Positions 13,873 through 30,578 of a DNA stretch of 39,692 bases are shown here, piece after piece. The stretch comes from Sebaldella sp. S0638 (GTDB lineage: Bacteria; Fusobacteriota; Fusobacteriia; Fusobacteriales; Leptotrichiaceae): NCBI RefSeq assembly GCF_024158605.1, contig NZ_JAMZGM010000031.1, positions 1 to 39,692 on the forward strand. The letters are read 5' to 3'. Positions within the stretch are counted from its first letter, which is position 1. Each line of letters starts with the position of its first letter. The notes below the pieces were generated by a model. That model was not told the DNA's origin and did not search any database. It was given only the letters and a program-made list of their open reading frames with translations. The position numbers and the translations under genes were made by a program.

Positions 13873-14036
13873 GATACTCACCTCAAAAAAAATTATTAAA
13901 TCAATTATACTATATTTTCTATATAATAATCCAGTTATAATTATATTTATTTTATTTCGCTATTAAGCTTTTTTATATTACAGCTTTCTATTAATACAAA
14001 AAAAGAAAACTCCCGTCTTTTTATGTATAATATATG

Positions 14037-14061
14037 AAAAAGCCCTAAAAAGGGCTTTTTT
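14037..14061. terminator. strong terminator between pncB and the deoxynucleoside kinase gene
   Basis: A 10-bp stem with a GC-rich core (AAGCCC / GGGCTT), 4-nt loop, A's on the left and T's on the right. It can stop transcription from both sides. It is downstream of the kinase gene on the minus strand. Confidence 0.8.
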
Positions 14062-14100
14062 GAAGGAGTTTTATGAAGAAAATTATTTTCTTATAATACA
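14037..14100 (-). ncRNA. sRNA-like 3' module downstream of the deoxynucleoside kinase (copy A)
   Basis: Read on the minus strand: an AT-only hairpin (AAGAAAAT / ATTTTCTT, 14077-14093), then an unpaired stretch ending AAAACTCCTT (14063-14072), then a strong hairpin of 10 bp (14037-14046 with 14051-14060) with a T-rich tail. The block at 14063-14082 matches 19 of 20 bases of a second locus at 30526-30545, which has the same parts in the same order. ACTCCTT is complementary to AAGGAGT, the local Shine-Dalgarno sequence. No strong promoter is visible, so it may be processed from the kinase mRNA. Confidence 0.5.
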
Positions 14101-14164
14101 AACAGTTTACACGCTCCGTCTTAGCTTTTTCTTTGGATAGCCTTTATTTTACCAAAGAACGTTT

Positions 14165-30384: not shown

Positions 30385-30414
30385 AAAGGGTTGCGTCATA
30401 TGACGCAGCCCTTT
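30385..30414 (+). terminator. terminator of the ahpC operon
   Basis: A 14-bp stem (30385-30398 with 30401-30414, one G-U pair), GC-rich core, T-tract on the right; also works from the left. Confidence 0.85.
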
Positions 30415-30441
30415 CTTTTGTCTTTTTTAACCTCCAGCACT

Positions 30442-30469
30442 TTGTCTAAGGAAATTATGAGTATATAAA
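30442..30469 (+). promoter_or_regulatory. promoter of the candidate sRNA (copy B)
   Basis: TTGTCT (30442-30447), 16 bp, TATAAA (30464-30469). Predicted start near 30476. Confidence 0.5.
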
Positions 30470-30475
30470 AAGGAA

Positions 30476-30578
30476 AAACTAAGTTAATAAAGTTACAATG
30501 GATCATGCTAAAAGAAAAATAACTTTTTTCTTCAAAAAACTCCTTAAAACCAAGCTTTCAGCTTGGTTTTCTTTTTTT
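30476..30578 (+). ncRNA. candidate small RNA with anti-Shine-Dalgarno seed (copy B)
   Basis: About 100 nt between the promoter at 30442-30469 and a strong terminator: an 11-bp perfect stem (30546-30556 with 30560-30570) followed by C and seven T's. In front of the hairpin lies an AT hairpin (AAGAAAAAT / TTTTTTCTT) and then unpaired AAAAAACTCCTT (30534-30545), complementary to AAGGAG. The block 30526-30545 matches copy A (14063-14082, minus) at 19 of 20 bases, while the terminator stems differ. A conserved seed next to a variable terminator is the layout of trans-acting sRNAs. Fusobacterial FoxI is a known envelope-control sRNA, but I cannot say whether these are related. Confidence 0.55.

Follow-up and report, generated by a model that had tools for sequence, protein, structure and literature searches.

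Predicted small RNAs antisense to translation starts form a multicopy family in Sebaldella and related Leptotrichiaceae

Streptococcus genomes each carry several similar small RNAs (sRNAs), the csRNAs, under the control of CiaRH. According to the parts of the published accounts available to us (PMC3091779, PMC8186281), they are activated by a response regulator through 11-bp direct repeats (the CiaR box, NTTAAG-N5-TTTAAG, ten bp from the -10 element; PMC3091779) and hold anti-Shine-Dalgarno (anti-SD) and anti-start sequences in an unpaired region. LhrC1-5 of Listeria are likewise multicopy and governed by one two-component system, LisRK, and in the available part of PMC4132741 a CU-rich seed is directed at the SD of an mRNA for a cell-wall protein, in connection with envelope stress. 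Within the Fusobacteriota, the envelope-targeting FoxI and FoxJ of Fusobacterium nucleatum have a C-rich seed and are transcribed from Sigma-E promoters (PMC11005410, also available in part). A further RNA of similar layout is Enterococcus sRNA 84 (Ref84; RF02846), in which a 5' UACCAA, a U run, CAU, ACUCCUU and a terminator follow one another.

The window analysed here is the whole of a 39,692-nucleotide stretch, contig 31 of the 4.27-Mb draft genome of Sebaldella sp. S0638. A preliminary description of it had reported two 20-base blocks on opposite strands, identical at 19 of 20 bases, and had proposed that they belong to an sRNA family; we confirm both blocks in position, strand and identity, and resolve the following features around them.

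30446..30483, plus strand: regulator box of the 30 kb locus, with CTAAG (30446-30450), a degenerate ATGAG (30457-30461), AAAAG (30468-30472) and CTAAG (30479-30483) in an 11-bp register
30494..30499, plus strand: -10 element TACAAT, with the last CTAAG 10 bp upstream
30507..30578, plus strand: predicted sRNA of about 72 nt, its putative start 13 nt past the first base of the -10
30512..30532, plus strand: A/U hairpin, 5' of the seed
30526..30545, plus strand: shared block, antisense of the SD, a start codon (CAA, anti-UUG) and AAG-AA codons
about 30533-30545, plus strand: predicted single-stranded part of the block
30546..30578, plus strand: intrinsic terminator with T tract
14120..14146, minus strand: regulator box of the 14 kb locus, with TAAAG (14146-14142), CAAAG (14135-14131) and CTAAG (14124-14120) in an 11-bp register
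14104..14109, minus strand: -10 element TAAACT, with CTAAG 10 bp upstream
14032..14096, minus strand: predicted sRNA of about 65 nt, its putative start placed as at the 30 kb locus
14076..14092, minus strand: A/U hairpin, 5' of the seed
14063..14082, minus strand: shared block, antisense of AAGGAG-UUUU-AUG-AAG-AAAA
14036..14061, minus strand: intrinsic terminator, or 14032..14061 when taken to the end of the predicted sRNA

Both predicted starts are placed by analogy with the C44_28172 member, and the resulting sizes (about 72 and 65 nt) fall short of the roughly 100 nt first suggested. As had been described, a terminator with a different stem sequence follows each block; the AT hairpin said to precede it does fold at both loci, but it is weak and absent in some other members. 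ACTCCTT is indeed the complement of AAGGAGT, and the complementarity moreover extends across the start codon and two Lys codons. Allowing up to 3 mismatches, the window contains 3 matches to the block, 2 of them exact when one base of the pattern is left free, where 0.17 would be expected; none of 100 shuffles attains that number. Folded whole, both members are more stable than their shuffles (z -2.9 and -2.8), probably mainly on account of their terminators. The seed is unpaired in both predicted folds, with part of the CUCC of the 14 kb member pairing weakly upstream.

The blocks might instead be ordinary 3' ends, that is, terminator-proximal untranslated parts of upstream genes lacking promoters of their own. 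The 14 kb locus lends itself to this reading, as the kinase gene upstream of it lies on the same strand with no intervening terminator seen. At the 30 kb locus, however, the upstream peroxiredoxin/thioredoxin-like genes are directly followed by a terminator-like hairpin and T tract (about 30388-30420), which makes them and the sRNA two transcription units, and the -10 and the boxes are conserved in register; we regard a 3'-end origin as highly improbable.

The source genome contains five exact matches to the 20-mer (one base free), all of them followed by a terminator and preceded by CTAAG 10 bp before a TANANT hexamer, while a reversed control pattern of the block matches nowhere at up to one mismatch. 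The block is thus not a common repeat scattered through unrelated contexts without terminators. The promoter signature CTAAG-N10-TANANT is itself no evidence, being rarer (61 places) than its reversed control (83), and yet the seed and terminator are also present at 18 of the 49 places inspected singly; the other 12 of the 61 were covered by a later whole-genome search with a sequence-only model built from 18 members. This search returned 23 matches, of which 22 were judged and 21 accepted, 20 of them at E 1.6e-10 or better (high by construction for the 18 members that built the model) and one, C22:40269, at E 2.7e-4 with seed, terminator and a partial box. C44:15967, C44:16219 and C22:40269 were newly found by the model, and C53:4628 was rejected as the start of a gene beginning MKK.

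The two-member or larger family first proposed therefore extends to 21 credible members with promoter, seed and terminator, and to relatives across the bacterial family. In nearly every member we recognize a promoter of its own, an anti-start body and an intrinsic terminator, and on these sequence features we hold with very high confidence that the sRNA family is genuine, conserved and multicopy, and that its seed is anti-start.

We further searched 98 genomes of the phylum with the model. The three Sebaldella congeners yield 13, 11 and 21 matches (45 in total, a few of them weak or cut off), and 23 of the 29 other genomes of the bacterial family have 1 to 5 matches each; the remaining six (G065, G083, G084, G087, G091 and G092) have none. 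In all 23, at least one inspected match per genome has the seed, a terminator, a -10 and the box or a box variant (CTAAT, CAAAG), and some second matches within the family are gene starts or ambiguous (e.g., in G074, G076 and G080). Outside the family, 44 of 65 genomes give weak matches at E <=0.01 (best 1.2e-4). We inspected six such loci and accepted none: the box is missing from all six, three or more are starts of MKK genes, and one (L134) has a terminator-like hairpin after a seed-like stretch. E-values are thus loose for so AT-rich a model. The block itself occurs at up to one mismatch in 21 of the 98 genomes, and the inspected loci are family-like in 7 of 8 cases in the congeners and in 0 of 19 outside the genus. 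A wider contig scan gave at least 118 stretches; the model was applied to the 80 loci listed, and its top six matches come from five contigs of Sebaldella or Leptotrichiaceae (L194, L199, L217, L219 twice, L263); the best other score is 19.7 bits.

The arrangement of the copies bears on whether they are a mobile or palindromic repeat that carries promoter and terminator motifs by chance. Clustering would fit such a repeat: seven members lie on one contig, C44 (L088:1994-11494 and L147), including four tandem copies inside 0.93 kb. Yet terminator stems vary between members while promoter and seed persist, each of 13 g6 genomes has at least one credible copy, and both window members have counterparts in G090 (at 1204807 and 1221517) about 16.7 kb apart, a spacing nearly equal to that of the window pair, which counts against mobility. 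We consider a mobile repeat extremely improbable.

Read in reverse complement, the shared block spells out an entire translation start, AAGGAG-UUUU-AUG-AAG-AA. Among the 83 members whose bodies were parsed (from 88 alignment rows, 5 dropped), the anti-start triplet is CAU in 68, CAA in 13 and otherwise in 2, the 30 kb member being anti-UUG and the 14 kb member anti-AUG. The seeds fall into two classes, A(A)ACUCCUU and A(U)ACCCCCUU, and the 5' part is A-rich, with ACCAA common to many members (ACCAAU in many). RNAalifold finds no consensus pairs in the 88-row alignment, so structure was assessed one sequence at a time: the 64 distinct bodies fold at a mean of -2.6 kcal/mol against -1.3 for shuffles, with 16 of the 64 reaching the 5% level or lower. 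Most Leptotrichia-like and g11 genomes have a good A/U hairpin (-5 to -7 kcal/mol), which is weak or lacking in some of the Sebaldella set and in certain others.

A block that is the complement of a translation start also reads, on the opposite strand, as a ribosome site and start (AAGGAG-UUUU-ATG-AAG-AAA), and the conserved unit could be a small open reading frame whose product, a short hydrophobic peptide starting MKK, might serve as a toxin or leader peptide. The opposite-strand peptides are in fact MKK-initial and hydrophobic, and in many Leptotrichia-like genomes they have their first 11 residues in common. They range, however, from 7 to 67 amino acids with no common end; 15 of 83 starts are not ATG (13 TTG, one ATA, one ACG); the lengths from -10 to seed are out of frame (23, 28 and 32 of 83 at 0, 1 and 2 modulo 3); and the terminator T tracts and the conserved promoter are both oriented for the sRNA strand. 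A peptide gene is accordingly very unlikely to be the conserved unit.

The shared promoter is CTAAG-N10-TANANT, in which TANANT is a -10 of the TATAAT type, with NWAAG copies upstream at an 11-bp period. Anchoring on the -10 by model alignment (87 rows), we counted NWAAG at -15, -26 and -37, in that order. The 21 members of the source genome have it 19, 19 and 16 times, the 41 of the congeners 37, 39 and 32 times, and the 25 from other genomes of the family 15, 6 and 12 times, compared with a background of 0.009-0.018 per site elsewhere. The -15 position belonged to the search; -26 and -37 were in neither pattern nor model. These statistics treat paralogues and orthologues as independent, so the probabilities come out too small, and the 11-bp register is plain regardless. 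Placing the -10 by text pattern instead (4 of 100 places dropped) gives lower counts: 14, 13 and 12 of 20 in the source genome, 28, 28 and 23 of 40 in the congeners, and 13, 6 and 11 of 32 in the rest.

OmpR/PhoB-type response regulators use this layout, in which 11-bp direct repeats end 10 bp upstream of the -10. Control of the family by a response regulator is, we judge from this layout, a likely reading. The source genome has eight OmpR-type regulator genes, none with the box within 250 nt upstream, where autoregulation was sought; for the seven that were submitted, NCBIfam returns no model above cut-off. Two types, C47 and C7, are present in all five family-positive genomes checked (G000, G068, G074, G082 and G095). 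The C47 type is 73-85% identical across them and adjoins a putative histidine kinase (HAMP in the first 260 residues). The C7 type is 68-77% identical, only 38% in G095, and has an atypical receiver; in the source genome (L108) this lacks the acidic pair and K-P, the neighbouring genes resemble sodA and an Mrp-type ATPase by eye, and there is no kinase gene in the 3.2-kb locus. G065, which has no sRNA match, still carries a C47-type gene and a C7-like one (38%), so the profile, which omits one regulator each of G068 and G074, is not clean, and it does not decide between the two types. By tblastn, four of the six loci in which a first script had found no regulator were placed clearly and two (L320, L322) weakly.

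Within the stretches of the genome analysed for this, promoters with three or more boxes in register also occur outside the sRNA family. A three-box promoter (L080, minus strand; C22:13101) precedes an exported protein with two LTXXQ (Spy/CpxP-type) stretches (PF07813, 43.9 bits), which, with the analogy to known systems, points weakly to envelope stress, on one protein gene. Another three-box promoter (L061:1501-1610; C4:21449, plus strand) is followed by a short putative RNA unlike the family (ACCCG ... UUUACCUUUUU), which has a terminator of its own and may represent a second type of sRNA in this regulon. On the minus strand of L063 (about 455; C6, near 14.7 kb), four boxes in register precede a short putative RNA that ends in a hairpin and lacks the family seed. 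The three-box promoter at L062 lies inside a coding region and was set aside as probably due to chance.

We next consider targets among 291 script-called genes from part of the genome, 87 of them signal-peptide-like by a simple rule. The preliminary description had proposed target prediction with the ACTCCTT seed, and the outcome differs between its two loci. The type A seed of the 14 kb member binds gene starts at -10.1 kcal/mol against -6.0 in coding interiors, and beats its shuffles there (mean -7.7, best of 20 -9.2); the 30 kb seed (type A with CAA), at -8.9, is better than the shuffled mean (-7.4) but not beyond the best shuffle (-9.3). Signal-peptide-like genes are favoured by type A (p 0.024) and by the C63 seed (-9.9 at gene starts; p 0.042), and the 30 kb seed has no significant preference for them (p 0.088) over the 291 gene starts. 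Type B does no better than shuffles at gene starts (-8.8 against -9.0; signal-peptide-like p 0.11), and type B2 is not clearly better either (-9.5 against -8.9, best shuffle -11.7) while it favours signal-peptide-like genes at p 4e-7. Such genes make up 6 (A), 4 (B) and 6 (B2) of the ten best starts. Among the starts examined, no exact seed match occurs outside the sRNAs, the nearest being one base off (L010). These results support the view, short of naming particular targets, that the ACUCCUU class would aim at gene starts generally, with a bias to exported proteins.

The RNAs could instead titrate a protein, as sponges of the CsrB/RsmZ type do, rather than pair with mRNAs. The very many similar copies, as for some sponge RNAs, the conserved A-rich 5' part with ACCAAU in many members, and the failure of type B seeds to prefer gene starts over shuffled seeds would all suit a sponge, which, on the other hand, would not need complementarity to both SD and start codon, and CAU or CAA is kept in 81 of 83 members. 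We think a sponge unlikely. Blocking of ribosome binding sites by the seed is the natural reading, and repression at translation starts with a bias to envelope proteins appears reasonably probable, a judgement lowered slightly by the unevenness of the seed tests between seed types.

Set beside the known systems, the design of the family is by analogy that of the csRNAs and, less closely, that of LhrC, so far as the available parts of those sources describe them. The csRNA comparison is by description, not by RNA sequence. Shared with the csRNAs are several similar sRNAs per genome, an anti-SD and anti-start sequence in an unpaired region (here CAU or CAA beside a C/U run in all but two of the 83 parsed members) and, as we infer for the present family, activation by a response regulator through 11-bp repeats 10 bp before the -10, for which the regulators here are OmpR-type candidates only. 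Period and distance are the same and the box letters differ (NWAAG ... CTAAG, often three repeats), as do copy number (five in S. pneumoniae against 21 here) and phylum. With LhrC1-5 the family shares its multiple copies, a CU-rich seed complementary to the SD and, putatively, a single two-component system and a link to envelope stress; LhrC differs in having three CU-rich UCCC motifs per RNA and two stem-loops, and the available text describes no anti-start codon. FoxI and FoxJ, compared by description only, share the phylum, a C-rich seed and probably envelope targets, and differ in their Sigma-E promoters.

Rfam 15 has no family at gathering score in the window or in nine distinct member loci. 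The Ref84 model aligns full length, below threshold, to four places with C-rich-seed members, and its best two of 11 phylum matches at E <=0.1 are C-rich-seed Sebaldella members (43.5 and 39 bits; E 5.2e-4 and 3.2e-3 per genome); some 10 matches at this threshold would arise by chance in 98 genomes. None of these genomes yields a score at the gathering cut-off of 52 bits. Ten of the 11 matches were inspected, and the eight outside Sebaldella look chance-like; neither window member (L086, L087) has a Ref84 match at E up to 1. The hairpin that Ref84 has between CAU and ACUCCUU is absent in the family, its model positions being skipped. In Bacilli, Ref84-type genes occur in 8 of 398 genomes at E <=0.001 (4 above gathering), with none in three Bacillus- or Breznakia-type genomes searched; unlike the family they carry the extra hairpin, and NWAAG stands at the corresponding positions in 0 of 12 of their places against 22, 20 and 22 of 27 Sebaldella members. 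Four Ref84-like loci in two Bacilli genomes (L411, L412, L415, L417) have NWAAG at roughly 11-bp steps in a register unlike that of Sebaldella and may be under related control; one of these genomes has three tandem copies about 195 bp apart. We take the likeness to Ref84 as convergence or very remote kinship.

We found no report of this family in the literature searched, which covered few subscription journals. Leptotrichia buccalis was among 50 genomes searched in PMC11109978, and the ten sRNA candidates reported in the part of that paper available to us might include an earlier sighting.

Taking promoter, body and seed together, we consider it likely that the family consists of multicopy trans-acting sRNAs of about 65-75 nt that are activated by an OmpR/PhoB-type regulator and block translation initiation. 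A response regulator of this family would bind the 11-bp direct repeats and switch all copies on together, perhaps upon envelope stress; the sRNAs would then base-pair across the SD-AUG region of mRNAs, keeping the 30S subunit from binding and so reducing translation. Preferred targets would be genes beginning MKK, i.e., those for exported and envelope proteins, with the seed classes ACUCCUU and ACCCCCUU splitting the targets between them and the many copies summing to a fast and strong response. More tentatively, and somewhat short of calling it probable, we propose that this response-regulator-driven regulon, with its 21 or more similar antisense-of-start RNAs in a phylum of diderms, would slow the synthesis of exported proteins as a class and arose independently of the streptococcal CiaR/csRNA system, whose promoter geometry and anti-SD/anti-AUG design it shares.

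The family adds a large sRNA group, without an Rfam match here, to the Fusobacteriota. Its promoter signature defines a regulon and could lead to the sensor, and its 21 copies in two seed classes suit it well to the question of why a bacterium should multiply one sRNA. If regulator and action are as we infer, the pairing of a two-component system with anti-start RNAs would be present in a second phylum, where convergence can be tested against common origin.
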